Positions 1 through 15,613 of a DNA stretch of 30,617 nucleotides are shown piece after piece (within the stretch, counting starts at the first letter, position 1; every line of letters starts with the position of its first letter). Source of the DNA: a virus. The translations under genes and the position numbers were made by a program. Where the stretch lies: positions 1-30,617 of the IMG/VR virus record IMGVR_UViG_3300009537_000113; one strand, 5' to 3'. The notes under the pieces were generated by a model. It saw only the letters and a list, made by a program, of their open reading frames with translations. It did not search any database and was not told the DNA's origin.

Positions 1-1
1 G

Positions 2-931: not shown

Positions 932-937
932 CCCTAC

Positions 938-1120
938 CTAATACGGATAAAAAAACAAGATATCAAAAATGAGCTCTTCAACCCAAACAAACACACTCTT
1001 CTTAAAATATTATTATTATTATCATCTGTATATGTACGAGTGTTCATATCTAACCTACATTCACTGTAGCCTCTGCATTTCACGCTCAATCGTACACCCC
1101 CTGGGCATAATAGTATTGAC
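938..1120. other. AT-rich tract upstream of the early genes
   Basis: This is the most AT-rich segment of the window, including an A7 run near 949-955 and the ATT-triplet run at about 1008-1022. It sits directly beside the repeat cluster. A DNA-unwinding element or an UP-element-rich promoter region are both plausible. The base composition is seen directly; the role is inferred. Confidence 0.5.
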
Positions 1121-1144
1121 TACTACGCCGTAGATTGATTAGTG
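1116..1144 (+). promoter_or_regulatory. Possible sigma70 promoter with an internal palindrome
   Basis: TTGACT at 1116-1121 is a good -35 match; 17 bases on, TTAGTG (1139-1144) is only a weak -10. The spacer holds CTACGCCGTAG (1123-1133), a perfect inverted repeat with one central base, which could be an operator. It lies about 55 bases upstream of the first early gene, whose HTH product might be its own regulator. Confidence 0.35.
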
Positions 1145-1197
1145 TGTAGTGTTTTCCCGCGCGCACGCGCGCATACTGGACGCCACCGGAGATCCAC

Positions 1198-1761
1198 ATG
1201 AAAGACATCAGCCCAAGCCAATTCGCAGCCCAAACGGGCATGAACCGCTGCACCCCAATCCAGCAGGACATTCACCTGTGGATCCTCACCCAACCCCTCG
1301 GCCTGAGCTACCGCCGCATCCGCGAGCTCTCCGGCATCCCCCTCTCCACCATCCAACAACTAGTCAAAGGCAAGTTCCCCGGTCCACGGACCTACTACCG
1401 CCTCCGGGAGCTCATCATCCAATGCAGAGACGCCTACGTCCTGGACGACCCCCGCACTCCCTACCTCGTAGCTCACAAGAAGGCCATGCTTCGTCTCATC
1501 AACGACGTCCTCGATCTACCCCGCCCCGCCAGCGAACTCCGCCAGTCCGAGGCCATCCGCGCCTATCTCACCTCACTCACCGAGCCAACGCCTGTCCCCC
1601 GCATTGTCACCTACGCCCGGAAGCGGGGCTGGCCATGGCGAGTCGTCCAGAACATGTCTTCGCGCATGCCCATCACCAAGTCCCGCCGCCGCACCTCCAG
1701 GCACACCACCACGCTCTGGCAATTTACCCCTGTTGACGACCCGCCTACTCGCAGCGTATAA
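1198..1761 (+). CDS. Helix-turn-helix DNA-binding protein, first early gene
   Basis: 187 residues, starting at an ATG preceded by CCGGAG at suitable spacing. Residues about 35-58 (LSYRRIRELSGIPLSTIQQL) read as a classic helix-turn-helix: a hydrophobic helix, a Gly turn and a Ser/Thr-rich recognition helix. A second possible HTH-like segment (VTYARKRGWPWRVVQNM) lies near residues 137-153, and the C-terminal 30 residues are basic. No family beyond a generic transcriptional regulator is recognised. It follows the repeat-rich control region, so a role in regulating early transcription or binding the origin is reasonable. The coding strand here and in the next two genes is markedly C-rich, unlike genes from about 8.4 kb onward. 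Confidence 0.7.
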   Translation: MKDISPSQFAAQTGMNRCTPIQQDIHLWILTQPLGLSYRRIRELSGIPLSTIQQLVKGKFPGPRTYYRLRELIIQCRDAYVLDDPRTPYLVAHKKAMLRLINDVLDLPRPASELRQSEAIRAYLTSLTEPTPVPRIVTYARKRGWPWRVVQNMSSRMPITKSRRRTSRHTTTLWQFTPVDDPPTRSV

Positions 1762-1770
1762 ACGCCCGAC

Positions 1771-2214
1771 ATGTCCAAGAACCGACAGACCCGCCGTGAG
1801 CGAGAACGACGCCGCGCAGGGATTAATGCTGTCGCCACAGAGCGAGAGCGAGATGCCCTTAGACTACAGCTCGCCCAGCTACGCATCGAGCACGACGCAG
1901 AACTCGCTTGCCTCGCAGAGCACCGCGTCCAGATGCAGGCTGCGCACAACGCCGAGCTCGCTCAATTCGCTCGAGACTGCCGCACCTCTGAGGAGCGCAT
2001 CAAGCGCGAAGCTCGTGAGCAAATCGACGCCGCTAACCACGCCGCGGTCGAGATGGGCGCGCAGCTCCACGTCGCTCAAGCCCGTATCGCCGAGCTCGAG
2101 GCCGCCGTCCCGGAGTACGACAAGCTCCGCAGCCGTCTCAAGAAGAAGTCCCAGACCATTACAGAACTCCAGAGGAAAATCAATGCCTACCTCAAAGAAT
2201 CAAGTTCCCTATGA
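1771..2214 (+). CDS. Coiled-coil protein of unknown function
   Basis: 147 residues beginning with a strongly basic segment (residues 3-16, rich in Arg). Nearly the whole remainder is alternating Glu, Arg, Leu and Ala with Gln, typical of a long alpha-helical coiled coil. There is no recognisable catalytic motif, signal peptide or membrane segment. It begins nine bases after the HTH gene, and the following P-loop gene starts inside its 3' end at 2183, so the three are probably one transcript. The basic start could bind nucleic acid, but this is a guess from charge alone. Confidence 0.7.
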   Translation: MSKNRQTRRERERRRAGINAVATERERDALRLQLAQLRIEHDAELACLAEHRVQMQAAHNAELAQFARDCRTSEERIKREAREQIDAANHAAVEMGAQLHVAQARIAELEAAVPEYDKLRSRLKKKSQTITELQRKINAYLKESSSL

Positions 2215-2581
2215 TGAACTGAATCGCCAGCTCGCTGAGCTCAAGCGCATCAACGCCGAGCAGCTCGCCCGACTCAACACTACCTATCTCCTCAAGCAGG
2301 AGAACGCCCGGCTCAAGCAACAGCTCGGCCAATCGCCCCTGTTGCCTGCCACACCTCCCGGCGACCCTACGGGTGTCCATGTCCTCATCTACGGCAAGCA
2401 CGATACCGGCCGTACTACTATGGCCAACCTATTCGCCCAGTTTCTGAGGGAGAACAGCTACGAGAACGTCATCGTTCGGGACACTCCTTCGCTTCCACCA
2501 CACCAGAAGGAGAAGTTCGAGGAGCGATTCCGCCGCAACCGCCAGCGTCCTATCGCCATCACAGTCAAGACGGTCCCGTGA
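2183..2581 (+). CDS. Coiled coil joined to a small P-loop domain
   Basis: 132 residues; the ATG at 2183 follows AGAGGA and overlaps the previous gene by 32 bases. Residues 10-48 form a Leu/Glu/Gln-rich coiled coil. From residue about 66 the protein resembles the small P-loop proteins common in phage early regions: a beta strand (VHVLIYG), a Walker A-like loop GKHDTGRTT, a helix, and a terminal strand (IAITV). The usual Lys of the Walker A loop is Arg here (GRTT instead of GKTT), which often weakens or abolishes ATP hydrolysis. No Walker B Asp is obvious. It may be a nucleotide-sensing or purely structural derivative. Function unknown. Confidence 0.65.
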   Translation: MPTSKNQVPYDELNRQLAELKRINAEQLARLNTTYLLKQENARLKQQLGQSPLLPATPPGDPTGVHVLIYGKHDTGRTTMANLFAQFLRENSYENVIVRDTPSLPPHQKEKFEERFRRNRQRPIAITVKTVP

Positions 2582-3111
2582 CGAACCCCCACAAGAACTA
2601 CTCGCCCGATTGGTGTACACCTCCCGAGTGGTGGGAGTGGGCTGAAGAAACGCTGGACGGTATTGACCTCGATCCATGCGCGGATCCTGCCTACCCGGGC
2701 CCAGTCGAGCAGTCCCTCACCGCACGCGGACGTAGCCGACCCTGGCGAGGTAGAGTCTACTGCAACCCGCCGGGCTCGAATTCCGTCAAATCCATCAAGC
2801 CATGGTGGAAGCACGCCATGAAGCAACTCGAGTCCGGCCGTACAACCGACCTCGTGTGGTGCTTCTTCAATATGGAGACGGTGTTTTCGCTCGAACCGTC
2901 TCCTCTGTCCTTAGAGGGCTGGCTTCTCCTCCCTTCCCGACGCGTTGCATTCCATCGAGACGGGGGGCGACCCGTCAACCCGAACACCGGTCGTTTCACC
3001 TCACCGCGTAATCGGACGTGGTTCTGGTCGACATGCGACCCCGCCTCACCACCCATCTCCTCATGGGTAGTACGTACCCCCTGTTCTGTGTTGGACGCTT
3101 CCATGAAGTAA
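2578..3111 (+). CDS. Phage DNA N6-adenine methyltransferase-like protein (Dam family)
   Basis: 177 residues, GTG start overlapping the previous stop (GTGA), so translationally coupled. The N-terminus has the arrangement of the phage Dam family: DWCTPPEWWEWA (about 11-22), then DLDPCADP (about 30-37), then the motif IV region YCNPPGS (about 61-67), and later a FFNMETVF segment followed by LLLPSRRVAF. These proteins methylate adenine in DNA using S-adenosylmethionine, often to evade host restriction. The motif IV position is NPPG rather than the usual NPPY/DPPY, as in a subgroup of the family I recall having NPPGG. Activity is therefore uncertain and its target site cannot be predicted. Confidence 0.75.
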   Translation: MTNPHKNYSPDWCTPPEWWEWAEETLDGIDLDPCADPAYPGPVEQSLTARGRSRPWRGRVYCNPPGSNSVKSIKPWWKHAMKQLESGRTTDLVWCFFNMETVFSLEPSPLSLEGWLLLPSRRVAFHRDGGRPVNPNTGRFTSPRNRTWFWSTCDPASPPISSWVVRTPCSVLDASMK

Positions 3112-3122
3112 CCGAAGGGAGA

Positions 3123-3221
3123 ATGCCAGTGAGTGATCTCAGAAGCACGGCAACGAAGATCGCCAACGCTATCCGCGCCCTCGCCCCCACCGCCAGCACG
3201 GAGGGAGCGGATGGGGAGTAA
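3123..3221 (+). CDS. Possible 32-residue peptide
   Basis: A short frame whose ATG follows GAAGGGAGA at good spacing, 11 bases after the methylase stop, and whose stop overlaps the start of the next gene. The product is Ala/Thr-rich with no motif. The start of its coding sequence (TGAGTGATCT near 3129-3140) resembles the sequence at the start of the gene at 3387, so one may derive from the other. Position and ribosome site support translation; nothing supports a function. Confidence 0.4.
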   Translation: MPVSDLRSTATKIANAIRALAPTASTEGADGE

Positions 3222-3390
3222 GCGCGTAACGCTCTGCCACGGCGTGGAGGACTACGCTCGTAGCACCTGCCCACTCGGCACCGCGCAGCACGACAAGCGC
3301 GCGACCTGTCCCGATTGCGGGGATGTCTTCTGCCCCGGATGCGAGTACTGCTGCTGCCCACGCACACCACCGAAGGAGCCGAGCGAATGA
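3211..3390 (+). CDS. Small Cys-rich zinc-ribbon-like protein
   Basis: 59 residues; the ATG at 3211 follows GGAGGGAG. The C-terminal half contains CPDCGDVFCPGCEYCCCP, with at least three Cys pairs of CxxC type, so it probably binds zinc. The N-terminal half has two further Cys residues and a His. Its stop overlaps the next start (ATGA). No family is recognised; small zinc-binding proteins of this sort are frequent in phage early regions and usually uncharacterised. Confidence 0.6.
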   Translation: MGSKRVTLCHGVEDYARSTCPLGTAQHDKRATCPDCGDVFCPGCEYCCCPRTPPKEPSE

Positions 3391-3686
3391 GTGATCTACG
3401 AAATGACCGCAGCCGTCATTCGTCGTGGTGTTCCTGCACCGAGTGCAAACCATGGCGGCTGCTCGAAGAATCCCAACGCGAAACAGCTGCTGAACGTGAG
3501 CGCATCGCCACCCTAGAGCGCCAGCTCGCCGAGGCGCGGGCGCTGCTTGCTGCGTGTGAGGGGCAGCTGTTTACGTGTGCCAGCTCATCGAGCGCGCTTG
3601 CAGTTCTCCGAAGCGTTGCGGAGTGGTTTAGCGCCAACCCGTACAACCCGACCGCCACCCCCGAGCCCCGGAAGGGAGAGGACTGA
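3387..3686 (+). CDS. Small protein with CxCxxC motif and coiled coil
   Basis: 99 residues, ATG overlapping the previous stop, with GAAGGAG upstream. After a polar start there is WCSCTEC (residues about 14-20), then a charged helix of about 40 residues rich in Glu, Arg, Ala and Leu that looks like a coiled coil, and a C-terminal part (VLRSVAEWFSANPYNPTA) ending in a charged tail. The next gene begins on the last base of its stop codon. The architecture, a short Cys motif followed by a coiled coil, is like that of the following gene, suggesting related roles or pairing. Function unknown. Confidence 0.6.
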   Translation: MSDLRNDRSRHSSWCSCTECKPWRLLEESQRETAAERERIATLERQLAEARALLAACEGQLFTCASSSSALAVLRSVAEWFSANPYNPTATPEPRKGED

Positions 3687-4171
3687 TGGCAAGCGGACTC
3701 GACAAATGCGCTCGCTGCGGCGCGACGGACCTGCATATCGATCTCGTGCGTCACTGTTCGACGTGCTACGCGAACCTCCGCGCCGAGAACGAGCGGCTCA
3801 AAGACGTAGTACTCTCGCTCTGTGAATGGGCAAGTGGCTACGATGGTCGGCTCCACAACGTAGCGCTGGGAATGGTCGTGATGAAGGCTCGCGCCGTACT
3901 CAGCGACTCCTTCGAGGATTCATTCGACGATGACACGCCCGGCGGATCGCTCGCCAAGATCAAGCATCTCGTCAGGCTGATGTCCAAAGAGCCGAATCCC
4001 GAAATCCGCGACTATGCTACCGAGCTCGCCGAACTCATCCCGGGCCTCGCCGTAGGTCGCGTCACTGAGATCCACGGAGGCAAGCCCTGCTGCCACCCGC
4101 CGTGCAGCGGTACATGGGGCGCGAACTGTCCGCACTGTCACTGGCTCGACCACGTATGTCCCGATGCCTGA
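3686..4171 (+). CDS. Zinc-ribbon / coiled-coil protein of unknown function
   Basis: 161 residues, start overlapping the previous stop (TGATG). Residues 8-27 hold two CxxC pairs (CARC and CSTC) forming a small zinc ribbon, followed by a coiled-coil segment (NLRAENERLKDVVLSL). The middle is helical and acidic. The C-terminus holds a second cluster of metal-binding residues, CCHPPC then CPHCHWLDHVC, about residues 134-159. Two separate zinc sites at the ends of a helical protein suggest a scaffold or nucleic-acid-binding role, but no family is recognised. Confidence 0.65.
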   Translation: MASGLDKCARCGATDLHIDLVRHCSTCYANLRAENERLKDVVLSLCEWASGYDGRLHNVALGMVVMKARAVLSDSFEDSFDDDTPGGSLAKIKHLVRLMSKEPNPEIRDYATELAELIPGLAVGRVTEIHGGKPCCHPPCSGTWGANCPHCHWLDHVCPDA

Positions 4172-4322
4172 CATCAACATAGTCTGCCGTAACTGTCCCA
4201 CCACCTTCGTGCTCACGGAGGAGGAGCAGCAGTTCCTACGCCGGACGTTCGGCGACAAATACACTCAGCCCGTGCGGTGTCCCTCGTGTCGCATGCGGCG
4301 ACGAAGAAAGAAGAGCGCATGA
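4164..4322 (+). CDS. 52-residue zinc-ribbon protein
   Basis: The ATG at 4164 lies just inside the end of the preceding gene, and the stop TGA overlaps the ATG of the exonuclease (ATGA). The product contains CRNC near residue 8 and CPSC near residue 40, separated by a segment with FVLTEEEQQFL. This is the layout of a treble-clef or zinc-ribbon domain seen in small proteins annotated only as zinc-ribbon. The C-terminus is strongly basic (RMRRRRKKS), suggesting nucleic-acid contact. Perfect packing between its neighbours supports it as a real gene. Confidence 0.65.
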   Translation: MPDINIVCRNCPTTFVLTEEEQQFLRRTFGDKYTQPVRCPSCRMRRRRKKSA

Positions 4323-4891
4323 CCGCCTACCAACACCTGATGATTGATCTCGAGACACTCGGCAAGAAGCCCGGATGCGCCATCGTTCAGCTCGGCGCGT
4401 GCCTGTTCAACATCGACGAGTCACCTCACGAGATCTTCTGCGAGAGTCTTGACCTGCAGAGCTCCATCGATCTCGGGCTGTATATCGACGGTTCGACGAT
4501 AAACTGGTGGATGCACCAGAGCGGCGAGGCGCGCTACAGTGTCTTCGACGGCGGCGAGCGAGGTGTCGTAGAGCTGGACTCAGGCATCGCGCTGCTGCTA
4601 CGCTGGCTCAGTCAGGGAGGCCTCACCGACTTCACCTCGCTGCAGGTGTGGAGTCATGGGCTCGCCTTCGATGTCCCCATCCTCGAGCATGCCATGGCGG
4701 TGTGCGGGATCCCGGTGCCTTGGTCGTACAAGAACCTGCGTGACACGCGCACGCTTGCCATGCTCGCGCCTGATGTCGAGCGCTATGAGCCTGCCATACC
4801 TCACAACGCCGGCGCCGATGCCACAGCTCAGGCCCTCTGGGTGCGCGACATGCTCAACGCGCTCGACGCAGCCGGTGCCTCAAGCGCCTGA
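4319..4891 (+). CDS. DEDDh-family 3'-5' exonuclease
   Basis: 190 residues, starting at the ATG that overlaps the previous stop. A longer frame from 4277 exists but would overrun the zinc-ribbon gene. The RNase H-fold exonuclease signature is complete: D10 and E12 in IDLETLG, D118 in LAFDVPIL, and H162 with D167 in HNAGADA, giving the DEDDh set that binds two metal ions. The protein removes nucleotides from 3' ends; phage members are similar to the Rv2179c/ExoVIII-type exoribonuclease group, so RNA or DNA could be the substrate. It is the last gene before a 105-bp gap holding a palindrome, repeats and a promoter. Confidence 0.85.
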   Translation: MTAYQHLMIDLETLGKKPGCAIVQLGACLFNIDESPHEIFCESLDLQSSIDLGLYIDGSTINWWMHQSGEARYSVFDGGERGVVELDSGIALLLRWLSQGGLTDFTSLQVWSHGLAFDVPILEHAMAVCGIPVPWSYKNLRDTRTLAMLAPDVERYEPAIPHNAGADATAQALWVRDMLNALDAAGASSA

Positions 4892-4961
4892 GGTGACGCC
4901 AGGCACGCTGGAACGCCCGGCGCGCATGCGCACGCGGTGCAATTCGCCTCAGACGCCTGAG
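4880..4961. repeat. CGCCTGAG repeats and GCGCATGCGC palindrome
   Basis: CGCCTGAG occurs at 4885-4892, where it overlaps the exonuclease stop, and at 4954-4961. The second copy pairs with CTCAG at 4948-4952 to make a small hairpin. Between them is a perfect ten-base palindrome GCGCATGCGC at 4922-4931. The 13-base TCAAGCGCCTGAG at 4880-4892 recurs exactly at 18278-18290. The position just upstream of a promoter suggests binding sites for a regulator. Confidence 0.55.
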
Positions 4962-4973
4962 ATACGTATAATT
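4944..4973 (+). promoter_or_regulatory. Promoter with consensus -10 box
   Basis: TATAAT at 4968-4973 is a perfect -10 hexamer, 23 bases upstream of the 2H phosphoesterase start. At the -35 position there is only TTCGCC (4944-4949, 18-base spacing), a poor match. The CGCCTGAG repeat occupies the spacer, so the promoter may depend on an activator or be controlled by a protein binding that repeat. Confidence 0.6.
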
Positions 4974-4995
4974 CGACATGCCATAGGAGGCTCGG

Positions 4996-5508
4996 ATGAT
5001 ACTCGGTGGTCATGCCATCATGTTGTCGGTCGACTTGCCCGACGAGATCAAAGCTGCCCGCGACCAATGGATCGCCGCGAGTCCCTCGCGCAAGGCAGTC
5101 GCCAATCCTCATATCACGCTGCTCTTCTTGGGACGCGATCTCGAGGAGTGGGTCGGCGATGCGATGGTCGACGTTGTGGATGAGCTAGAGCTCGAGATGC
5201 TGCTCCCGTTCGAGGCGCAGAGCACTGGGCGGTTCGAGATGTTCGGTATGTTGGGCGAGTCGATGGTAATGACGATGAAGGACGGTCCCCTCACCGTGAC
5301 GCGCGAGAAGCTCAAGGACATCTTCGACGAGAAGTTCGGCATCCGTCCTGATGGCTCCTTCCACAACTTCCGGCCGCATATCTCGCTCGCTGAAGGAGCG
5401 ACTGGTGATCCGCCCCCTGTCACGAGGGTCCCGCCGATGCTGATTCCGTTCAAGCAACTGCAGGCGAAGATCGGTTCGGCGCGCACCCACTCCAGGACCA
5501 TCGGCTGA
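4996..5508 (+). CDS. 2H phosphoesterase (LigT/CPDase-like)
   Basis: 170 residues; ATG at 4996 preceded by a perfect AGGAGG (4985-4990). The two signature motifs of the 2H superfamily are present: H39-I-T41 in NPHITLLFLG and H128-I-S130 in RPHISLAEG. These two histidines act on 2',3'-cyclic or 2',5'-linked phosphodiesters. Family members open cyclic phosphates on RNA ends, hydrolyse 2'-5' oligonucleotides, or (Acb1 of phage T4) degrade the cyclic nucleotide signals of CBASS immunity. The sequence alone does not decide which. It is the first gene after its own promoter and is followed by a zinc protein overlapping its stop (TGATG). A counter-defence role is possible, not shown. Confidence 0.85.
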   Translation: MILGGHAIMLSVDLPDEIKAARDQWIAASPSRKAVANPHITLLFLGRDLEEWVGDAMVDVVDELELEMLLPFEAQSTGRFEMFGMLGESMVMTMKDGPLTVTREKLKDIFDEKFGIRPDGSFHNFRPHISLAEGATGDPPPVTRVPPMLIPFKQLQAKIGSARTHSRTIG

Positions 5509-5666
5509 TGGACGTCGAAACCCAGTGCATCAACTGCAACGAGAACCTCGACTCTGAAGAGGAGGAGTTCATCTGCGAACACTGTGGTCAGGGCCTGTTC
5601 TGCGAGGCGTGCCTCGACCAGGAAGACCACGACTGTCCTGAGCTCGAGGTTGAGCCCACCGAGTAG
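5508..5666 (+). CDS. 52-residue B-box-like zinc protein
   Basis: Its ATG overlaps the stop of the 2H phosphoesterase (TGATG), so the two are translationally coupled. The product is very acidic and carries CINC, CEHC, a single Cys followed by CxxC (FCEACL), and a C-terminal HDC. This spacing of about seven Cys/His residues would hold two zinc ions in a B-box or AN1-like cross-brace. Such domains mediate protein contacts. It is too small for an enzyme and may be a partner of the phosphoesterase. Function unknown. Confidence 0.65.
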   Translation: MDVETQCINCNENLDSEEEEFICEHCGQGLFCEACLDQEDHDCPELEVEPTE

Positions 5667-5685
5667 GGTCTGATAACGTGGATGG

Positions 5686-6303
5686 GTGAACCTCTTTGTG
5701 GTCCATCCCTGCCCATTCACTTGCGCCATCGCGCTGGATGACAAACGGGTCAACAAGATCCTGCTCGAGACCGCGCAGATCCTGTGTACGGTGACGGGTC
5801 ACAGCGCGTATCGTCCGACGCATCGAAACCATCCAGTCGTTCGATGGGCAAGACGACACGTTCGACATACTTATTGGGTGTACCTGTATCACCTGGCTCT
5901 GGCTGCCGAGTACACCCACCGCACCTCGCGCTCTCACAAGTCGTGGGCGGATGTCGGTGCTCAACTGAGATTGAGGCGACAGCCTCCGCCGCATGAGTTC
6001 TGGAATCAGACCCCCTATACGGCGTCTGTGCATACGTCTTACCGCTGGTACTTGCGCGACAAATGGCGCAGCGACACGCGACCGCCGAAGTGGACTCATC
6101 GCTCGCCTCCCGACTGGCCGAACTATGGGGACGAGTATGACCTCCACAACCTACGGTTCCACGTTCATCGCGTTCAGGAGGATGGGGTTGCTATTCTTCA
6201 CGCGCCGGGAGACGGGTTCATCTACGTCAATTCGCCGGAGCTCGAGGCAATGACCAAAGCTCGTTCACGCCCTTACCCTTCTTCAAGACGCCCATCTCGT
6301 TAG
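5686..6303 (+). CDS. Probable pyrimidine-dimer DNA glycosylase-like protein
   Basis: 205 residues from a GTG start at 5686 with only a weak ribosome site. The N-terminus has the order FVVHPCPFTCAIALDD, then KRVNKILLETAQIL, then HRNHPVVRWAR, then a helix with Tyr/Trp (TYWVYLYHLALAAEY). This matches phage proteins annotated in the Pyr_excise group: a conserved Asp-Lys/Arg-His/Arg-Val start, a LETAQ helix and an NHP motif. Such proteins are presumed to repair UV damage, though the link to T4 endonuclease V is distant. Its last 77 bases overlap, tail to tail, the end of the primase-helicase gene on the other strand, so its final 25 residues may not be conserved. Confidence 0.6.
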   Translation: MNLFVVHPCPFTCAIALDDKRVNKILLETAQILCTVTGHSAYRPTHRNHPVVRWARRHVRHTYWVYLYHLALAAEYTHRTSRSHKSWADVGAQLRLRRQPPPHEFWNQTPYTASVHTSYRWYLRDKWRSDTRPPKWTHRSPPDWPNYGDEYDLHNLRFHVHRVQEDGVAILHAPGDGFIYVNSPELEAMTKARSRPYPSSRRPSR

Positions 6304-8137
6304 CGGCCTTGGAGATCGCAGACGCCGACACAGAACGGGCTTCGCCTGCGCGGAGGATGCGTCGTAAGGACACCTGTCCCTCCTCGAGCAGTTCGGCCAG
6401 CAGCTTCTCGGCCTCCTTGACCACCTCACTCTTGGTCGAGTGACCGTTGGTCGGGCCGGTAATGATCTGGTCGCTGGTCAGGTCTACGTACTTGCCCCAC
6501 ACGAACCGAGATCGATCTGACTGCTTGAGCGTGTCGGGTAGTTCTTCGATGGTGAACGTCAGTGTCTTCGGGGGACGCGTTACATTGATCTTGGTGACGG
6601 CCAGGGCGCGGATGTCTTCGACCTCATCCTCGTCCGGTACAACGCCGACGGTCATCACGATGCGCGCGAGGCCTGCGAAGGCAATGCTGCCTTGGCCTCT
6701 GTACAGTGCCTTCTCCTTCGATGACTTCGTGAGGTGACGCAGGACGAGCACGGCGCAGTTGTATCGGCGGGCGATGTCAACGAATCGCTTGAAGACCCAC
6801 TGAGTCTCAGTTGCCTTGTGCGAATCTGAGCGACCCATGTAGGTGTTGATGGTGTCGAAGACAACGAGCGTTGGCTTGAGATGCTCGATGGCTTCGTAAA
6901 CGCGGTCGATGATGTCATCGTTGTCAATGCTGAACGGCTCCTCCTCCTGATAGAAGTTGTGGAGGTTCTTCACGCCGTTCAGAGTGAGCCGCTTCTTGGT
7001 CACACTGCCGCTCGCGTTTTCGATGTCGAAGTAGGCTACCCTACCTTCGACTGGTGGGAACTTCTTCCGGCTGTGAGGGAGTCGCTTGCCGTCGCAGATC
7101 GCACCGCCTATCATCTGGGCGAGGTAGGACTTGCCGAGCCCCGGGTCGCCTTCGAGGATGGTGAGTTCGCCGCGTGCGAGGTAAGGATACCAGATCCAAT
7201 CCATCTCCTCGTCTTCGACGTCCTGCATGCTGTGGGCGAGGAATTTGTACGACTCATCCTCGAACTCGATCTCCTCGCCTTCTGTTAGTTCGGAGGGCAT
7301 CTCCTCGCCTGACTCATCGTCTTCGACGCGGAAGTGCTGGGTGAGTGACTTATTGAGCTCTCTCTTGAGCTGCTCATCGCCATCGCGACGGGTCCTGAAT
7401 TTGTTCCATGGGGATGCTCGCAGCAGTTCAAACGCCTCATCCTTTGATAGGCCCGCCTCGACAAGCTCGTGAGTCAGACGCCACATGACTTGGCTGCGCT
7501 TGCCCTTCGTCGGCTTACCTTTCAAGATGGTACGACGCACCCACCCAGGCAGTGCGTGCTCGTACTTCTTGTAGATACGTGCAGCACTGCTTAGCTTGCG
7601 GCCGAGCTTCTTCTCCTCGGGTACCAGTTCCTCGAGCTGTTCGATGGTGAACGTTGATCCATCACTCCAAAGTAGCTTGACTCGTGGAGTGCTTGTGTAC
7701 TTGTAGTTTCGGGTGTTCGGGATGCGCAAGACCTGAGTGAGATCCCAGCCTCCTTTGTCCGCGCCGATATGGTAGGTCAGGCGTCGGTTCAGGTTCTCTG
7801 TCATATATTTGTCGAGGATCCATAACCCGCAGTATCTGCCGGGCGATGACTCCCACGCGACTGTGGGTAACAGGTCGCCGAGAGTACGCGGGTCACACTC
7901 GTCAAGATCCCCCCACAGAAGCTTCGGGATCTCGGCGTATTCTTTGAGACGGCGGGGTTTGCGGAATCCGTGAGGACACCAGTACAGATCCTTGTCTAGG
8001 TTGTCCTTGATGAAGGCTGGGACCGTCTTCAACTGACTCCGCCGGAAGAAGTGATCCTTCCAGTCCCCCGATCTGCTCTTCGTTGAGATGCAGAAGAATT
8101 TACCGGGAACGTTTTTCCATATCCTTAGAATCAGCAC
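6227..8137 (-). CDS. Bifunctional primase-helicase (RepB-like primase plus RepA-like ATPase)
   Basis: About 636 residues. I prefer GTG at 8137, which has GAGGAG just upstream, over the TTG at 8149. The N-terminal third looks like a primase-polymerase of the archaeo-eukaryotic type: WGDLDECD with a DxD metal motif, SSPGRYCGLW, and VLRIPNTRNYKY, like the R-P-x-T-x-N-x-K signature. From about residue 320 there is a RecA/RepA-type helicase: Walker A GDPGLGKS, a Walker B strand TLVVFDTI, and VLVLRHLTKSS as a sensor-like segment. The C-terminus ends in a winged-helix-like region. It would unwind and prime DNA for the polymerase at 11316. It is the only replication gene on the minus strand and is coupled to the HTH gene upstream (48-base frame overlap region). 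Confidence 0.85.
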   Translation of the reverse strand: MLILRIWKNVPGKFFCISTKSRSGDWKDHFFRRSQLKTVPAFIKDNLDKDLYWCPHGFRKPRRLKEYAEIPKLLWGDLDECDPRTLGDLLPTVAWESSPGRYCGLWILDKYMTENLNRRLTYHIGADKGGWDLTQVLRIPNTRNYKYTSTPRVKLLWSDGSTFTIEQLEELVPEEKKLGRKLSSAARIYKKYEHALPGWVRRTILKGKPTKGKRSQVMWRLTHELVEAGLSKDEAFELLRASPWNKFRTRRDGDEQLKRELNKSLTQHFRVEDDESGEEMPSELTEGEEIEFEDESYKFLAHSMQDVEDEEMDWIWYPYLARGELTILEGDPGLGKSYLAQMIGGAICDGKRLPHSRKKFPPVEGRVAYFDIENASGSVTKKRLTLNGVKNLHNFYQEEEPFSIDNDDIIDRVYEAIEHLKPTLVVFDTINTYMGRSDSHKATETQWVFKRFVDIARRYNCAVLVLRHLTKSSKEKALYRGQGSIAFAGLARIVMTVGVVPDEDEVEDIRALAVTKINVTRPPKTLTFTIEELPDTLKQSDRSRFVWGKYVDLTSDQIITGPTNGHSTKSEVVKEAEKLLAELLEEGQVSLRRILRAGEARSVSASAISKAANEMGVLKKGKGVNELWSLPRAPAN

Positions 8138-8297
8138 GGCTCTCCTCAATCACGCGCTTGACTTCGTCCTTGTGAATGGCCAGGGCCCAGCCATGTTTTT
8201 CTGCTTTGACTTTGCCCCGACGTATTCGCGCTAGGAGAGTGGGATATGAAACACCGATTTTCTCGGCAGCCTCTTGAGCTGTTAGGTAATCTTTCAT
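8100..8297 (-). CDS. Small helix-turn-helix (excisionase/MerR-like) protein
   Basis: 65 residues from the ATG at 8297, preceded by GGCGGA; a TTG at 8315 would fall inside the promoter region. The sequence YLTAQEAAEKIGVSYPTLLA, followed by RIRRGKVKAEKHG and WALAIHKDEVKRVI, is the standard winged helix-turn-helix of the HTH_17/excisionase group: a helix, a Gly-Val-Ser turn, a recognition helix ending in RIRRG, then a wing. It is the first gene of the leftward operon and reads directly from the overlapping promoters at 8309-8354, so it is a good candidate to control them. The primase-helicase starts inside its 3' end. Confidence 0.8.
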   Translation of the reverse strand: MKDYLTAQEAAEKIGVSYPTLLARIRRGKVKAEKHGWALAIHKDEVKRVIEESRADSKDMEKRSR

Positions 8298-8308
8298 GTC
8301 TTCCGCCG

Positions 8309-8336
8309 TTGACAAGCGGTGTCGAAATTACATAAT
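8309..8336 (+). promoter_or_regulatory. Rightward sigma70-like promoter
   Basis: TTGACA (8309-8314), a 16-base spacer and CATAAT (8331-8336) give a near-consensus promoter about 37 bases upstream of the dNMP kinase start. It overlaps the leftward promoter almost completely, with the two -10 boxes sharing 8331-8332. Confidence 0.7.
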
Positions 8337-8354
8337 GTCGAGGCTCAGAGTCAA
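8327..8354 (-). promoter_or_regulatory. Leftward sigma70-like promoter
   Basis: Read on the minus strand: TTGACT (8354-8349), a 16-base spacer and TGTAAT (8332-8327). It faces the HTH/primase-helicase operon. A direct repeat TGTCGA at 8320-8325 and 8336-8341 brackets the shared -10 region and could be an operator. Confidence 0.65.
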
Positions 8355-8372
8355 CCACGGAGAACAACTAAG

Positions 8373-8879
8373 ATGAACATTGTGCTCGAGGGCCCCGATG
8401 GCGGGGGGAAGTCGACGCTAGCACAACGGTTGGCGGAGAGCTTCGATGATTTCCGCATTCAGCCGAGCGAAGGACGCGACAAGTACCCCGGCGAGCAGAA
8501 CGAACGTGTCGAGCGATACTTGATGATGCAGAACGTCTTGTTTGACCGTCACCCGGCGATCTCGCAGGACATCTACTGCATGATCCGCGGCGGACACGAG
8601 ACCTGTGACCCTCAGTTGGTGGCGAGGTTCTATACGACAGATCCTGTCATCGTGTACTGTCGGGTCACTGATGCCGCCACAGCGCTGGGTCATCATGTCA
8701 TCAAGGACCACGACACGCCCGAACACCTGAGGCAGGTCGAGGAGAATTACGATACGCTCATCCGTCACTATGATGAGTGGGCGCTCGAGCACGCGCATAT
8801 CATCTACCGAATAGGTGACTCGCCCAAGCCGGTGTTGGCGTTCATCCGCCGTCGTATCTATGAGGCGAGAGTGGCGTGA
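8373..8879 (+). CDS. Deoxynucleoside monophosphate kinase (thymidylate kinase-like)
   Basis: 168 residues; ATG at 8373 follows CGGAGA. A longer in-frame start lies inside the promoter and is rejected. The N-terminus MNIVLEGPDGGGKSTLA has the P-loop (residues 7-15) of the thymidylate kinase family, and FDRHPAISQDIYC (about 57-69) is the DR..S..Y nucleotide-binding motif. The enzyme would phosphorylate dTMP or a modified dNMP to the diphosphate. It is the first gene of a coupled run (8373-11319) of nucleotide enzymes, so the substrate may be the hydroxymethylated nucleotide made by its neighbours, as for T4 gene 1. Confidence 0.8.
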   Translation: MNIVLEGPDGGGKSTLAQRLAESFDDFRIQPSEGRDKYPGEQNERVERYLMMQNVLFDRHPAISQDIYCMIRGGHETCDPQLVARFYTTDPVIVYCRVTDAATALGHHVIKDHDTPEHLRQVEENYDTLIRHYDEWALEHAHIIYRIGDSPKPVLAFIRRRIYEARVA

Positions 8880-9670
8880 GGAAAGCCTTTCTGCAACAAG
8901 CGCTGAAGATGGCCGGTACGGAAGCCGACTTCTACAGTGGATGTCGCAAGATCCTGCAACGCCGCAGGCTGCGGTTCAAGCTCAAGGACGACTTCGCCAT
9001 CAAGGATTGCGGGTTCACGAAGACCAAGCTCACGCTGCTGCGCAAGCTGTATCTCCACGACGAGAGTCGGGACATGGCGGTGAAGCTGTGGCATCGCCGG
9101 CTCGAGCAGAAGAAGTACGGCAGTGTGGGGTTCACCTGCTACAACCACCTGCTCAAGGCTGACCCGTCGAAGAAGAGCAAGCGCGCCAGCGTCATGGGCC
9201 CGTGTATCCAGGCCGTCACGCTCACACTGAATGAGCGGGGCAGTGTCAACATCGATGCGTTCTACCGCACCACCGAGCTGTTCAAAAAGTTCCCGGCGGA
9301 CCTGGTGTTCATGCGCGACGAGTTGCTTGAGCCGTTCGAGCTCGAGAACCCGACGGTCACGTGCCACTTCGCCAACATCACGTGCCATCCGATGTACTTC
9401 GTGACTCTGGTGCCTCTGATGGACCGACCGATCCAGGCGTTCGAGGATCTGCGGCACGACGAGCACTTCTACAACTGGTGCGTCAAGTGGACGGCCCGGT
9501 ACGTCTGCGAGGAGAACTCGCGCGGCATCCAGAAGTTCGCGCAGGCTCTCCGCGTACAAAAGGACGCGCTCGAACGCATCGAGCCCAAGCAGCTGAAGAA
9601 GCTGCAAGCGTATCTACGAAAGAACCACCCCGGGTACCGCAACGACTACGAAGGAGATGACGATGAGTAG
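8876..9670 (+). CDS. Divergent thymidylate synthase-family protein (possible dNMP hydroxymethylase)
   Basis: 264 residues; GTG start overlapping the kinase stop (GTGA). The central part fits the ThyA fold. MGPC110IQ carries the catalytic Cys. Twenty-one residues later comes YR131TTELFKKFPAD142, the phosphate-binding and base-recognition segment. ANITCHPMYF corresponds to the sugar-binding HxY region. The residue 11 after the Arg is Asp where dUMP-specific enzymes have Asn. The conserved RSxD is weakened to RTTE, and the N-terminal 80 residues are not recognisable. It may be a second hydroxymethylase, a non-catalytic partner of the ThyA-like protein at 10079, or an enzyme with another substrate. 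The family call is moderately secure; the reaction is inferred. Confidence 0.6.
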   Translation: MRKAFLQQALKMAGTEADFYSGCRKILQRRRLRFKLKDDFAIKDCGFTKTKLTLLRKLYLHDESRDMAVKLWHRRLEQKKYGSVGFTCYNHLLKADPSKKSKRASVMGPCIQAVTLTLNERGSVNIDAFYRTTELFKKFPADLVFMRDELLEPFELENPTVTCHFANITCHPMYFVTLVPLMDRPIQAFEDLRHDEHFYNWCVKWTARYVCEENSRGIQKFAQALRVQKDALERIEPKQLKKLQAYLRKNHPGYRNDYEGDDDE

Positions 9671-10082
9671 ATTCACAGAGGACCTGGAAGCATTCCACAT
9701 CAAGTACGGGCTCGAGTACACCGGCATGCCGCGCATGCTCCCAGGAGAGTTGCTCGAGTTCAGAGTCAAGTTCCTTCAGGAGGAACTGCGTGAGTACATC
9801 GACCACATCTCGCAGGAAAACCAAACCGAAGCCTTGGTGCAGTCCCTGGACGCACTCGTCGATCTTGTATACGTTGCTATTGGAACGGCATACCTCCATG
9901 GTTTCAGCCCGGTCATCTTTGACGAAGCGTGGCGCCGCGTCCAAGAAGCGAACATGAGCAAGGTTCGCGCCGAGCGGGCGAGCGATTCCAAACGCGGCAG
10001 CACGTTCGATGTCGTCAAGCCCTCTGGATGGACACCTCCCGACCACACCGACTTGGTCAACGGGGTCTGGCGGCCCGCATGA
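9663..10082 (+). CDS. MazG/HisE-like nucleotide pyrophosphohydrolase
   Basis: 139 residues; I choose the ATG at 9663, seven bases after AAGGAG, over the one at 9657, which is too close. The all-alpha NTP pyrophosphohydrolase motif is visible: LQEELREYID (about 38-47), then LDALVDLVYVAIG (about 61-73), supplying the EExxE and ExxD-type metal ligands, followed by FDEAWRRVQEANMSKV, a segment typical of the phosphoribosyl-ATP pyrophosphohydrolase subgroup. In a phage nucleotide cassette this is likely a dNTP pyrophosphatase that removes an unwanted dNTP (such as dCTP, as T4 gp56 does) and supplies dNMP to the neighbouring enzymes. Its stop overlaps the next start (ATGA). Confidence 0.8.
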   Translation: MSRFTEDLEAFHIKYGLEYTGMPRMLPGELLEFRVKFLQEELREYIDHISQENQTEALVQSLDALVDLVYVAIGTAYLHGFSPVIFDEAWRRVQEANMSKVRAERASDSKRGSTFDVVKPSGWTPPDHTDLVNGVWRPA

Positions 10083-10867
10083 AACGCTACAACAATTTCC
10101 ACCTCGCTATTGAGAAGACGCGTGATGAGCTGCGGTACACGAGCTCACTCGTACACCCGAGCAAGTGGCAGAGCATCGATGTCAGCGACAAGCCGGACAT
10201 GGCGACCTACGAGATCCTCAATCACTCGTTCCAGGTGCCCCTGTTCAGCGAGAACCTCGAGCATCTTCGCGGCGACATCGAGCCCAACCTGCCTTGGGCG
10301 GACGACCACTTTGAGGAGCGCGTCGGCGAGGAGCCGCTGAATCCCGGCGAGCAATGGAAGAACTGGCCCTACGCCCACAGCGCTGACCGATTCCGCACCG
10401 AAGGCGAGCAGTTCTCCCACACCTACATGGAGCGGTATTGGCCGAAGCGAGCGGGCAACAAGGCCGACGCATTCAAGCCTCACCTCGGCATCCGATACCG
10501 GTATGGCGACCTTCTGGACGTGGTCGATCTTCTGCAGCGCGAGCCTCTGACGAGGCAGGCTTATCTGCCGATCTTCTTCCCCGAGGATACGGGCGTGCAC
10601 CACGGTGAGCGCGTGCCTTGTACGCTCGGGTACCACTTCATCATGCGGCACGGGTACCTGCATTGCGTGTACTACATCCGTAGCTGCGACTTCGTGCGGC
10701 ACTTCCGCGATGACATCTACCTGACCGTGCGTCTGCAGCTGTGGGTCCTCGAGCGCATGCGCAAGACCCCTGGGTGTGAGAACGTCAAGCCGGGGACGAT
10801 GACCATGCACACTACGTCCATGCATATGTTCCGCAACGACTACCTGCAACGGTGGGGGGACCGATGA
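10079..10867 (+). CDS. Thymidylate synthase-family dNMP hydroxymethylase, probably acting on dCMP
   Basis: 262 residues; ATG overlapping the previous stop. ThyA-family features are clear in the C-terminal half: catalytic C181 in RVPCTLGYHF, then R201-S-C-D204 in the phosphate and base site, and MHTTSMHMF (about 243-251) in place of the usual HxY sugar site (Tyr to Phe). The segment RSCDFVRHFRDDI aligns closely with RSNDVVFGFRNDY of T4 dCMP hydroxymethylase, and D212 falls exactly at T4 Asp179, the residue that selects cytosine; thymidylate synthases have Asn there. I infer that it converts dCMP to 5-hydroxymethyl-dCMP using methylene-tetrahydrofolate. It sits between a pyrophosphohydrolase and a dCMP deaminase. 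Confidence 0.75.
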   Translation: MKRYNNFHLAIEKTRDELRYTSSLVHPSKWQSIDVSDKPDMATYEILNHSFQVPLFSENLEHLRGDIEPNLPWADDHFEERVGEEPLNPGEQWKNWPYAHSADRFRTEGEQFSHTYMERYWPKRAGNKADAFKPHLGIRYRYGDLLDVVDLLQREPLTRQAYLPIFFPEDTGVHHGERVPCTLGYHFIMRHGYLHCVYYIRSCDFVRHFRDDIYLTVRLQLWVLERMRKTPGCENVKPGTMTMHTTSMHMFRNDYLQRWGDR

Positions 10868-11319
10868 GGATCTCGCGCCACAACATGTTTATGAAGATGG
10901 CGCGCGCTGCATCCCAGCGCTCGACCTGCCATCGCCTGAACGTAGGTGCCATCCTCGTCCTCGAGAACAATGTCATAGCGACAGGATATAACGGTGCTGT
11001 GTCAGGAGCACCTCACTGTGGCGGAACCGATTGCCAATACTTCGAGCGCGGCGCATGTACCGTGGTCCATGCCGAGGAGAATGCGATTCAGCGTCTCGCC
11101 CTGACTGCCTTCCCAGATACCCTCTATGTCACCCACTCGCCGTGTATGCGCTGCGCTGAGATGCTCGTCAAACTCGGCGTCCAGGCCGTGTACTTCGAGG
11201 TGCCGTATCGCAAGCCACAGGCTATCGACTTCATGGTCGAGAACGGCATCGACGTATATCAACTGACGCCGGGCGGATACCGCGTCAACCAGAAGACATT
11301 GGTTGTCGAGCAACTGTGA
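10864..11319 (+). CDS. dCMP deaminase (ComE/Dcd family)
   Basis: 151 residues starting at the ATG that overlaps the preceding stop (ATGA); an upstream ATG at 10852 is inside the previous gene. The zinc site is intact: H69-A-E71 in VVHAEENAIQ and PC94MRC97. Further Cys/His residues near the N-terminus (HCGGTDC, about 51-57) match the second metal site of phage dCMP deaminases. The enzyme converts dCMP to dUMP, feeding thymidylate or hydroxymethyl-dUMP synthesis. The next gene starts on its stop codon (GTGA). Its presence beside a presumed dCMP hydroxymethylase mirrors T4, where both are made. Confidence 0.9.
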   Translation: MRISRHNMFMKMARAASQRSTCHRLNVGAILVLENNVIATGYNGAVSGAPHCGGTDCQYFERGACTVVHAEENAIQRLALTAFPDTLYVTHSPCMRCAEMLVKLGVQAVYFEVPYRKPQAIDFMVENGIDVYQLTPGGYRVNQKTLVVEQL

Positions 11320-13841
11320 GAGGCCTACAGAAATACCGCGACCCCGACTGCACCGACTGCCGACTGCATAAGACCGCTCAGTTCGTATGTCTGCTTGGCG
11401 ACGGACCTGTGCCGTGCGACATTATGATAGTCGGCGAGGCTCCGGGCAAGCGAGAGGACGCGAGCGGTGTACCATTCATAGGACGTGCGGGGCAGTTGCT
11501 TGACGAGTTGCTCGAGGAGCACGGCATAGGACGGAAGCAGTGCTTCATCACCAACGCCGTCAGCTGCCGCCCGCCAGGCAACAAGACGCCCACGAAGGGC
11601 GAGATCAAGAAGTGCAAGCACTGGCTCGAACTTCAGATCAAGAAGGTTAAGCCAAAGTACGTTCTGCTGCTTGGCAATGTTCCGTTGATCTCGGTCACCG
11701 GTAAGGCGGGCATCAAGAAGATGCGGGGTCGAGCGTTTGAGTTGGATGGCATCACGTACCTGCCGACGTTCCATCCCGCGTTCATCCTGCGAGATGACAA
11801 GAACCGCCCTCAGCTCGAGGCGGATGTAAGGTTCTTCGCCGAGATCGTCAAGAACAGGGGCATCCCACGAGAGGAGGGCCTCAACCACGTCATCGTCGAT
11901 GACAAGTCCGGCTTCCAGGATATGCTCGACGACATGAGCGGCCTCGTGTCCTTCGACGTCGAGACTACGGGCCTGTACCCGTGGGACCCGGTCATCGATC
12001 TCCCGCCGAATCCGAAGTATCCCGACGTGCCGCGCAAGAAGGGCGTGGTATCGCTCGGCATCGGTACACGACACAGGCAATGGTGTCTGCCGCTCGCACA
12101 CCCGGGAGCACCCCGGTGGCGTCATCTGCCGAAGATGATAGAAGCGCTTGACCAGCGATTCCACGACTGCGAGGTAGCAGCGCAGTTCGGCAAGTTCGAT
12201 TGCCTGTGGATGCGCGTCATGCACGGCGTCCGCTGGTATCACGACTTCGACACAGGCCTGGCACACTACCTCCTCAATGAGAACATGCGACACGGCTTGA
12301 AGCTGCTAGCGCAGGTGGAGTACGGCGCGCCTGACTTCGACGAGTCAATCGGCATGAAGACAGGCGCCGAAGGGTCACTCGAGGACCATTGCTACTACCT
12401 CGCCCATGACCTTTACTATACGCGGAAACTGCGCTTCACGCTGGGCAAGAGACTGCGACAGGACCCGGGCGTCCAGCAGGTGTTCGACAATATCCTCATG
12501 CCGTGCTCTCGACTGTTCACTGACATCGAGCATCACGGAGTCTACGTCGACCGACCCGAGTTCAAGAAGGCCGAGAAGTACCTGCTCGAGCAGATCGCGA
12601 AGGCAGAGGCCAAGCTCAAGAAGATAGCTGACATTAACTGGGGCTCAACGCAGCAGGTAGCCAAGGTCCTGTACGGCAAGTTCAAGTTGCCGGTGATGGA
12701 GAAGACGAAGACAGGCGCACCATCCACCGGCGAGAGCGCACTCAACCAGCTCGATCACCCGGTGGTGAAGACGCTGCTCGAGTTCCGCGGGCACAGACAG
12801 CAGTACAACTTCTTTATCAAGGGGTGGAAGCCGTTCCTCGTGGACGGACGCATGCACCCCAGCTTCAAACTCCACGGTGCAGTGACCGGTCGACCGTCCT
12901 GTGAGCATCCAAACTTGCAACAGGTCCCGCGCGACTCGCTTATCCGGTCGCTCATCACTGCACCACCAGGCTGGGTGCTTGTTGAGGGCGACCTGTCCCA
13001 GATCGAGATGCGCATTGCCGGCGAACTCAGCGGTGACCCGACCCTGCTCCGCTGCTTCAATGAAGGGATTGATGTACATTGGCAGACGGCCGTCCGGGAG
13101 ATGGAACGCGGCGGTGCTGAGCCGGAGTTGGTCAAGGAAACAGCATTCAAGTACAGCGGGCAGAGGCTGAACTACGGCGATGCGATTGAGGTCATCCATG
13201 CGATGGGACCGGACGTCGCCATCGAGCTATTCCCCGAGTGGAAGGAGTTGAGGAAGAAGGCCAAGGCGGTGAACTTCGGGTACCTGTTCGGGATGTGGTG
13301 GAAGAAGTTCAAGGCCTATGCCCGTGACAACTACGGGGTCATCATCACGGATGACCAGGCCCGCGAGAGTCGAGAGGCGTACTTCGAGCTATACGATGGG
13401 CTGCCGGGCTGGCACGAGCGACAGCGCCGCTTCGCGCGCCGTAACGGTTATGTCCGATGCCTCAGTGGTCGCAAGCGTCGACTCCCCGACGCACTCTCAC
13501 CGCACGACACGCCGGCTAGGGGGGAGGCCTTGCGCCAAGCAATCAACTCGCCTGTCCAGGGGTTCGCGTCAGAACTCAACCTCATGGTGGCGTTGCAGAT
13601 GGCCGAGGAGTTCTCACGCAACGTGTTCCGGCCCATCGGCACAGTACATGACTCGATGCTTGCCGAAGTGCGCAAGTCAGCGCTGACGAAGGTCTGTACT
13701 CGCTGGCTCCAGATCATGGAGGGCCCGGCGATGCTGGAGAGGCTAGATATCAAAGTCCGTGTACCGCTCCGAGGCGACGTAGCAGTCGGCCCGTGGAGCA
13801 AGGGGAAGACATTCCATGCCGTTCAAGATCAGCCAGTCTAA
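11316..13841 (+). CDS. Family-4 uracil-DNA glycosylase fused to DNA polymerase I
   Basis: 841 residues, GTG start coupled to the deaminase. Residues 1-180 are a family 4 uracil-DNA glycosylase: GEAPGKREDASGVPFIGRAG (40-59), the HPA motif (about 153-155) and all four iron-sulphur cysteines (C12, C15, C84, C100). Residues about 195-400 are the 3'-5' proofreading exonuclease (D214 and E216 in FDVETTG; FD in QFGKFDCLW; YLAHD). The polymerase follows: motif A GDLSQIEMRIAG (about 555), motif B KAVNFGYLFG (about 650) and motif C VHDSM (about 776). Two variations stand out: the motif B Tyr is Phe, and motif C has Ser after the catalytic Asp, where Glu is usual. The phage SPO1 polymerase also has a UDG-like N-terminus. 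This is the replicative polymerase. Confidence 0.93.
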   Translation: MRGLQKYRDPDCTDCRLHKTAQFVCLLGDGPVPCDIMIVGEAPGKREDASGVPFIGRAGQLLDELLEEHGIGRKQCFITNAVSCRPPGNKTPTKGEIKKCKHWLELQIKKVKPKYVLLLGNVPLISVTGKAGIKKMRGRAFELDGITYLPTFHPAFILRDDKNRPQLEADVRFFAEIVKNRGIPREEGLNHVIVDDKSGFQDMLDDMSGLVSFDVETTGLYPWDPVIDLPPNPKYPDVPRKKGVVSLGIGTRHRQWCLPLAHPGAPRWRHLPKMIEALDQRFHDCEVAAQFGKFDCLWMRVMHGVRWYHDFDTGLAHYLLNENMRHGLKLLAQVEYGAPDFDESIGMKTGAEGSLEDHCYYLAHDLYYTRKLRFTLGKRLRQDPGVQQVFDNILMPCSRLFTDIEHHGVYVDRPEFKKAEKYLLEQIAKAEAKLKKIADINWGSTQQVAKVLYGKFKLPVMEKTKTGAPSTGESALNQLDHPVVKTLLEFRGHRQQYNFFIKGWKPFLVDGRMHPSFKLHGAVTGRPSCEHPNLQQVPRDSLIRSLITAPPGWVLVEGDLSQIEMRIAGELSGDPTLLRCFNEGIDVHWQTAVREMERGGAEPELVKETAFKYSGQRLNYGDAIEVIHAMGPDVAIELFPEWKELRKKAKAVNFGYLFGMWWKKFKAYARDNYGVIITDDQARESREAYFELYDGLPGWHERQRRFARRNGYVRCLSGRKRRLPDALSPHDTPARGEALRQAINSPVQGFASELNLMVALQMAEEFSRNVFRPIGTVHDSMLAEVRKSALTKVCTRWLQIMEGPAMLERLDIKVRVPLRGDVAVGPWSKGKTFHAVQDQPV

Positions 13842-14949
13842 GGTAAACACGTGGCGGACGTGTCACTACAAGTATCACCTCAAGTACGTCGAGAAGCTCG
13901 TGCCGCTCGCGAAGAGCCGACCGTTGAAATTCGGTGGCATCATCCACAAACTGATCGAGGTCAATGGCGAAGGCGGAGATTGGCAGTCCACGCTCAACGA
14001 GATCGCGCATACCGAGAAAAAGCTATTCGCTGCGGAACGCGAGGCCTATGGCGAGATCATCGATGACATCCGCATCATCTTCGCGGCGTACCTCGAGTAT
14101 TGGGGCGACCGCAGGCACCATGCGAAGTCCCTCAAGTTCATTGAGCGGGAGGGAAGGCTCACTGAGCTGCCGTTCCAGATCCCCATCGACAACGGTAACT
14201 TGCTCTTCAAAGGTGTCATTGACGGCTTGTTCCGCACGCCGAACAAGTTGAAGTGGCTAGGAGAGCATAAGACCTTCACTCGGATGCCGAGCCATGACCA
14301 TCGATGGAAGAGCATTCAGCCCGCGGTGTACATCCGTGCTATTGAGATGCTCGGCTGGCTAAAGGACGTGGATGGAGTCGCATGGAACTATATCTACTCG
14401 AAACCTCCCACACGTCCACAGAGGCTGAAGTCGGGGGGACTCAGTCAGAAGAAGATCGTGACTCTGCCCTCTGTGGTACAAGAAGCGCTCGAGCGCGACA
14501 GCCTTGACCCCCGTGACTATGCCAAGCTCATCGACATGGCCGGGGAGTCCCAGTCCGTGTACTTCCGGCGTGTCTTCACCCCAGTAAAACGACCTGTGGT
14601 GGATTTTCTGTTCAGTGGTTTCATTGACACCAGCCGCAAAATAGCCGACAGTCATGGTCGCGTCAAGGATATGAACATCGGACGGAACTGTGACTGGTGT
14701 AACTACGAACCCATCTGCAGCGCCACACTGACCGGCGGCGACATCGACTTTGTGAAGGAGAGGCAGTTCATCCATGAAGATCAAAGGCAAGAAGCAAAAG
14801 AAGTCCCCGGCAACGGCAAAGTCGAAGCCAGAATCAAAAAGCATAGGGGCAAGGGTGAGACCCGCAAGCAAGCTAAACGCCCATCGAAGCTGCGTATTGT
14901 ATGGCCGAAGCGGGACGGGGAAGACGACGGTAGCTGGGACATTTCCTAG
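13816..14949 (+). CDS. Cas4/RecB-like PD-(D/E)XK exonuclease with iron-sulphur cluster
   Basis: 377 residues; ATG preceded by AGGGGAAG and overlapping the polymerase end by 26 bases. The N-terminus (ISQSKVNTWRTC16) and H44 in FGGIIHKLIE, D136 in GVIDG and E150-H-K152 in LGEHKTF give the complete nuclease active site. C16 together with C292, C295 and C301 (CDWCNYEPIC) would hold a 4Fe-4S cluster, as in Cas4, AddB and Dna2-type nucleases. It would resect DNA ends for recombination with the Sak4-like ATPase next door. The last 58 codons, basic and low in complexity, overlap the start of that gene in another frame. Confidence 0.85.
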   Translation: MPFKISQSKVNTWRTCHYKYHLKYVEKLVPLAKSRPLKFGGIIHKLIEVNGEGGDWQSTLNEIAHTEKKLFAAEREAYGEIIDDIRIIFAAYLEYWGDRRHHAKSLKFIEREGRLTELPFQIPIDNGNLLFKGVIDGLFRTPNKLKWLGEHKTFTRMPSHDHRWKSIQPAVYIRAIEMLGWLKDVDGVAWNYIYSKPPTRPQRLKSGGLSQKKIVTLPSVVQEALERDSLDPRDYAKLIDMAGESQSVYFRRVFTPVKRPVVDFLFSGFIDTSRKIADSHGRVKDMNIGRNCDWCNYEPICSATLTGGDIDFVKERQFIHEDQRQEAKEVPGNGKVEARIKKHRGKGETRKQAKRPSKLRIVWPKRDGEDDGSWDIS

Positions 14950-15610: not shown

Positions 15611-15613
15611 GCC

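Follow-up and report, generated by a model that had tools for sequence, protein, structure and literature searches.

In bacteria, bidirectional promoters form an established class, with transcription starts on opposite strands separated by 18, 23 or 10 bp, and the polymerases that use them are mutually exclusive (PMC12825309; PMC10268837). In plasmid pLS20 of Bacillus, overlapping divergent promoters together with a repressor/activator form a real switch (PMC4207663), and at its own bidirectional promoter the MerR-type regulator SoxR stimulates transcription in one direction and prevents it in the other (PMC12825309). Bidirectional promoters were recognised recently; the detailed examples are bacterial and weak, and their control is little understood.

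Among phages, divergent promoters are known from the cro/PR–PRM region of lambda, where an HTH gene is the first product and the core elements show no comparable overlap. In this study, a 46-base site in a virus contig was analyzed, at which two near-consensus promoters had been predicted to lie on top of each other in opposite directions. The window, i.e. the whole stretch of 30,617 bases that was analyzed, carries tail-sheath, baseplate and tape-measure genes and therefore comes from a myovirus-like phage.

Promoter architecture and flanking genes

The rightward sigma70-type promoter occupies positions 8309–8336 of the plus strand, with TTGACA at 8309–8314, a 16-nt spacer and CATAAT at 8331–8336. 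The leftward sigma70-type promoter occupies positions 8327–8354 of the minus strand, with TTGACT at 8354–8349, a 16-nt spacer and TGTAAT at 8332–8327. These sequences and coordinates, including bases 8331–8332 that are common to both −10 boxes, agree exactly with the original prediction, and the two promoters are centred alike, on 8331/8332. The frequency matrix prefers TAATTT with an 18-nt spacer as the leftward −10 box, which lies in the same place as TGTAAT. The rightward promoter matches the consensus at 11 of 12 positions and is the top of eight sites detected in positions 1–20000 of the window. Assuming a spacing of 7 nt, the starts are predicted at about 8343 (rightward) and 8320 (leftward), i.e. 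23 bp apart, or 25 bp with the leftward choice of the matrix. The whole divergent gap measures 75 bp, from the minus-strand ATG at 8297 to the plus-strand ATG at 8373, and both sides have leaders of about 20–30 nt with ribosome sites.

The two −35 boxes form an outer inverted repeat, GTTGAC...GTCAAC, at 8308–8355, the centre of which is common with that of an inner dyad, TCGAaATTAcaTAATgTCGA, at 8322–8341. A putative operator covering both −10 boxes (8320–8341) contains the direct repeat TGTCGA (8320–8325 and 8336–8341; 16-bp period), from the bases of which the inner dyad is also built; because TCGA is self-complementary, these bases double as the arms of an inverted repeat. The bracketing TGTCGA repeat that had been noticed originally is real, and TGTCGA-N8–18-TGTCGA occurs as a single such pair in the whole record. 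Its description as a purely direct repeat was relaxed, since the identical bases form the dyad and can be read either way. Of the 24 symmetric positions 15 pair, which makes the site strongly palindromic; this level is reached at 14 of the 30,557 centres in the window.

Both directions were scored jointly, the value being that of the weaker side. The matrix was built on general sigma70 frequencies. On this approximate matrix the site scores 10.2; when the 75-bp intergenic region was dinucleotide-shuffled 300 times, no shuffle reached this value. It is the top bidirectional score in the window, followed by 7.1 for the next best position, and the top single promoter score of the window also lies within the site. 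When the two −35 boxes are kept unchanged in the shuffles, the −10 boxes of the window site still score better (p = 0.004).

On the left, the first gene (8100–8297, minus strand; ATG at 8297–8295, Shine–Dalgarno-like GGAAG at 8304–8300) encodes a 65-amino-acid winged-HTH protein, and the second gene of the unit (6227–8128, minus strand) encodes a primase-helicase with a RepB-primase-like N-terminus and an AAA_25 domain. On the right, a thymidylate-kinase-like P-loop protein is encoded by the first gene (8373–8879, plus strand), which is preceded by GGAG at 8359–8362. The remainder of the rightward operon (8876–18139, plus strand), whose close spacing suggests co-transcription, comprises in order genes for a conserved unknown protein, MazG-like, thymidylate synthase-like and dCMP deaminase-like proteins and a UDG + exo + DNA polymerase A protein, followed by PD-(D/E)XK exonuclease, Sak4-like, DUF669 and SNF2-type helicase genes. 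Among the genes examined, the HTH/kinase-like pair is the single divergent gene pair in the window.

Several further features of the window were observed. The open reading frame at 11316–13841 (plus strand) fuses a uracil-DNA-glycosylase-superfamily domain, a 3′–5′ exonuclease domain and DNA polymerase A. The gene at 8876–9670 (plus strand), which is conserved in the neighbourhood of thymidylate synthase, belongs to no Pfam or PHROG family and has similar DNA in phage Strzyga (about 70% identity). No convincing gene was recognised in positions 1–1150, which include an AT-rich patch at about 930–1130, and scanning the window with Rfam and for tRNA genes gave no matches.

Conservation among related phages

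The order primase-helicase, small HTH gene, gap and kinase gene is shared by Brevundimonas phages Strzyga and Polewnik and by phage ctuI7215. The divergent order was likewise found in Desulfofustis phage LS06-2018-MD02, though its annotation differs at this place, as well as in many viral contigs and in a single contig from an Alteromonadaceae metagenome bin. Related genes, arranged differently, were seen in Pseudomonas phages PMBT14 and Lebethron and Gordonia phage Feastonyeet, which were rejected. In viral contigs, a single-sequence search with the primase gave no matches, and an alignment-based search with it gave some. At the DNA level, the window segment matched pieces of 60–80% identity in four phages, with no near copy and no piece covering the promoter, and no paper describing the promoter in these phages was found in a literature search that fell short of most subscription journals.

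In nearly all of the relatives the gap contains GTTGAC...GTCAAC, which spans about 44–53 bp and has −10-like boxes for both directions close to its middle. Distant relatives retain the overlapping near-consensus elements, and the spacers are all close to 17 bp; examples are TTGACA-18-TATATT/TTGACC-17-TATAAT at locus L018 and TTGACA-17-TATTAT/TTGACG-17-CATAAT at locus L023. The predicted starts are 23, 21 and 18 bp apart in individual relatives and 18–23 bp apart in most.

Divergent loci were defined by the HTH and primase-helicase genes on the left and the thymidylate-kinase-like gene on the right, and were compared with 34 distant kinase loci that mostly lack this layout; two further loci (L015 and L016) were inspected by eye and set aside unscored. 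A strong overlapping pair (weaker side ≥9) was present at 27 of the 37 non-redundant divergent loci, to which L097, L067 and L076 had been assigned and from which L069 had been left out after the layout and scores were seen, and at none of the 34 comparison loci. The median scores were 10.9 and 4.1, respectively (Mann–Whitney p ≈ 2 × 10⁻¹², which overstates independence as the loci are related), and at 30 of the 37 divergent loci no more than one of 60 shuffles did as well as the locus itself. When the −35 boxes were fixed, the −10 boxes in both directions remained better than shuffles at p < 0.05 in 26 of 34 loci, where p is to be read as an effect size because the loci are related. The −10 boxes are weak in one or both directions in a minority (L010, L038, L039, L041, L070 and L075).

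The rightward −35 box is TTGACA in 23 of 34 loci and the leftward box in two of 34, so that the better −35 box tends to be the rightward one. The strengths of the two directions are of similar order in most relatives, and competition between polymerases is plausible at the window site because both of its sides have near-consensus −35 boxes. Judged from the sequences, the 46-base arrangement is real and selected, because the same layout recurs in dozens of distantly related phages.

At two loci (L071 and L076), which lack an HTH gene and in which the primase gene is the immediate divergent neighbour, the overlapping promoters are kept upstream of the kinase gene; the HTH regulator is therefore not essential to the arrangement. 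Other variants were also seen. At L017 and L037 (IMGVR_UViG_3300048793_000029) the primase-helicase and kinase genes are divergent with about 2 kb of other genes between them, no HTH gene was found there, and the compact promoter unit is broken up. At L018, L019, L021–L023 and L030 the rightward −35 box is immediately followed, in the leftward leader, by a conserved ribosome-binding stretch of the CCGGGGG type, so that the −35 box for one gene also serves as leader for the other gene.

The HTH regulator and operator-like boxes

The first leftward gene had been expected to encode a small HTH protein, which is borne out by a match to Pfam HTH_17 above the cut-off, and an HTH gene is first on the leftward side in nearly all relatives. 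A profile of the HTH relatives matched Pukovnik Xis from a mycobacteriophage (PDB entry 4j2n; E = 6 × 10⁻⁴) and RdfS. The AlphaFold model of the 65-amino-acid protein has a pLDDT of 85, and the best Foldseek matches of this short model were RdfS, Xis, RacA, SoxR and BldC, with a probability of 1.0 but E values of about 0.01 or weaker. The protein combines the small winged fold with the sequence relatedness of Xis/RdfS/BldC-like winged-HTH proteins, and resembles BldC, RdfS and Pukovnik Xis in size, predicted fold and sequence profile (PMC5859096; PMC11963761). However, the repeat period of BldC is 9 bp, whereas periods of 10 or 16 bp are common in these phages. A phage excisionase (recombination directionality factor) would be encoded together with a tyrosine integrase and an attachment site; neither was identified near the HTH gene, whose neighbour is the primase-helicase gene, in the part of the open reading frames that was scanned in this 30.6-kb record, which may be a fragment.

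Nine relatives have a Cro/YdaS-like protein at the HTH position. These nine loci form one group on the kinase tree (support 92/96), a grouping that is consistent with a single exchange of the regulator.

TTGAC/GTCRA boxes are enriched between the −35 boxes in both groups, numbering 14 in the Cro-like loci (shuffle mean 3.0; maximum of 200 shuffles, 8) and 22 in the HTH_17 loci (shuffle mean 5.7; maximum 16). In the Cro-like loci the inner boxes form an inverted pair, TTGACATTAAACTGGTCAA, over both −10 boxes, and at L012 both arms of such a pair are changed together, to TTTAC..GTAAA. In the HTH_17 loci the prevailing arrangement is tandem with the leftward −35 box, at distances that are commonly 10 or 16 bp; tandem GTCRA boxes are present in the window and many HTH_17 relatives, and an exact inner box is absent in about ten HTH_17 loci. 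No convincing operator motif common to the window and its nearest HTH relatives (L038, L075, L039 and L041) was found. The way in which the box arrangement tracks the HTH family suggests autoregulation by a local, exchangeable repressor, and it is plausible that the HTH protein binds at the promoter. Local feedback is favoured because BldC-type proteins bind tandem direct repeats head to tail (PMC5859096) and RdfS binds and represses its own promoter (PMC11963761).

Discussion

The reading that we favour, with a probability of roughly 0.6, is that the host sigma70 polymerase uses the site as a bidirectional promoter, which would fire both replication units, with feedback by the HTH protein on its own promoter. 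The polymerase would bind in either orientation, one at a time, to transcribe the HTH and primase-helicase genes leftward and the nucleotide-metabolism and DNA-polymerase operon rightward. Both operons would be switched on together, early in infection, and would limit each other only at high activity. The HTH protein, as the first leftward product, would then bind the TTGAC/GTCGA boxes within the promoter and, after enough replication protein had been made, throttle its own promoter and probably both, so that the site would provide a shared on-signal with feedback rather than a choice between programmes. A more specific proposal, which we put forward tentatively and at clearly lower probability, is that, in a widespread phage replication module, one symmetric sigma70 bidirectional promoter has stayed fixed while the resident repressor was exchanged, for an unrelated HTH protein, from a tandem-binding (Xis/BldC-like) to an inverted-binding (Cro-like) type, with competition setting the ratio of the primase-helicase to the nucleotide/polymerase operon.

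The original prediction had held that only one polymerase can bind at a time, which is upheld by the overlapping core elements and by the steric exclusion established for this class (PMC12825309). It had further proposed that these promoters, of which only one could be in use at a time, form a switch between the primase-helicase and the nucleotide/replication operon, possibly set by the HTH protein. Steric exclusion would permit such a switch, and pLS20 and SoxR provide precedents, but DNA replication and nucleotide supply are the business of both operons, which would be needed together, and this leaves no apparent reason to choose; an early on-signal common to the two, with feedback, therefore accounts better for the layout. 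The existence of loci with no HTH gene and the similar strengths of the two directions in most relatives also speak against a switch, the operator-like dyad of the Cro-like group predicts repression of both promoters, and published bidirectional promoters compete only at high activity (PMC12825309). The switch is therefore not retained and we regard it as improbable. Somewhat less improbable, but still unlikely, is a bidirectional promoter with no local regulation, the HTH protein acting elsewhere, for example as an excisionase-like protein or a replication accessory. The same two loci that keep the overlapping promoters and have no HTH gene would fit this explanation, as would the matches to excisionase families and the observation that bidirectional promoters often work at low basal levels with no competition (PMC12825309). 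It accounts poorly, however, for the first position of the HTH gene in nearly all relatives, for inner boxes that exceed shuffles and for the shift of these boxes from a tandem to an inverted arrangement where an unrelated HTH protein, of the Cro-like type, has taken over; no integrase gene was identified in the part of the open reading frames of the 30.6-kb record that was scanned.

The GTTGAC...GTCAAC element might instead be an operator or an iteron-like replication-origin element for the primase, with no promoter pair at all, in which case its position adjoining the primase-helicase gene and the recurrence of TTGAC-like boxes within it would be natural. This is very improbable, since a −10-like box lies 16–18 bp from each −35 box at most loci, beyond the −35-fixed shuffles, even though the span of the element varies from about 44 to 53 bp, and since the element is always positioned between the two start codons.

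The site offers a strong, near-symmetric promoter, retained among distant phages at the head of the replication genes, with dozens of natural spacing variants and two unrelated regulator families. Strzyga, Polewnik and other cultured phages would allow competition between polymerases and the co-evolution of promoter and repressor to be tested directly.

With respect to known systems, the locus resembles lambda cro/PR–PRM in that an HTH gene is the first product, which in one clade of relatives is Cro-like. However, in a lambda-type bistable switch two repressors that oppose each other share operators between divergent promoters, whereas the window has one regulator gene and its first rightward gene encodes a kinase-like enzyme. 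The Pc/Pr promoters of pLS20 are likewise overlapping and divergent, with a regulator gene read from one of them, but they combine a strong and a weak promoter with DNA looping and lifestyle control, none of which is seen in the phage site, where replication genes lie on both sides (PMC4207663). The site also resembles the bacterial bidirectional promoters described by Warman, Grainger and colleagues (PMC12825309; PMC10268837), which likewise have overlapping −10 elements on opposite strands (here 8331–8336 of the plus and 8332–8327 of the minus strand) and yield two mRNAs of related function, as the phage site would. The starts predicted in these phages, 18–25 bp apart, cover the bacterial 18- and 23-bp classes (PMC12825309). 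The five tested Escherichia coli cases have low basal activity (PMC12825309), whereas both −35 boxes of the phage site are near consensus and symmetric, and, unlike its bacterial counterparts, this promoter is a phage element that belongs with a conserved module. The site is thus an unusually conserved new phage case of the known bacterial bidirectional-promoter class.
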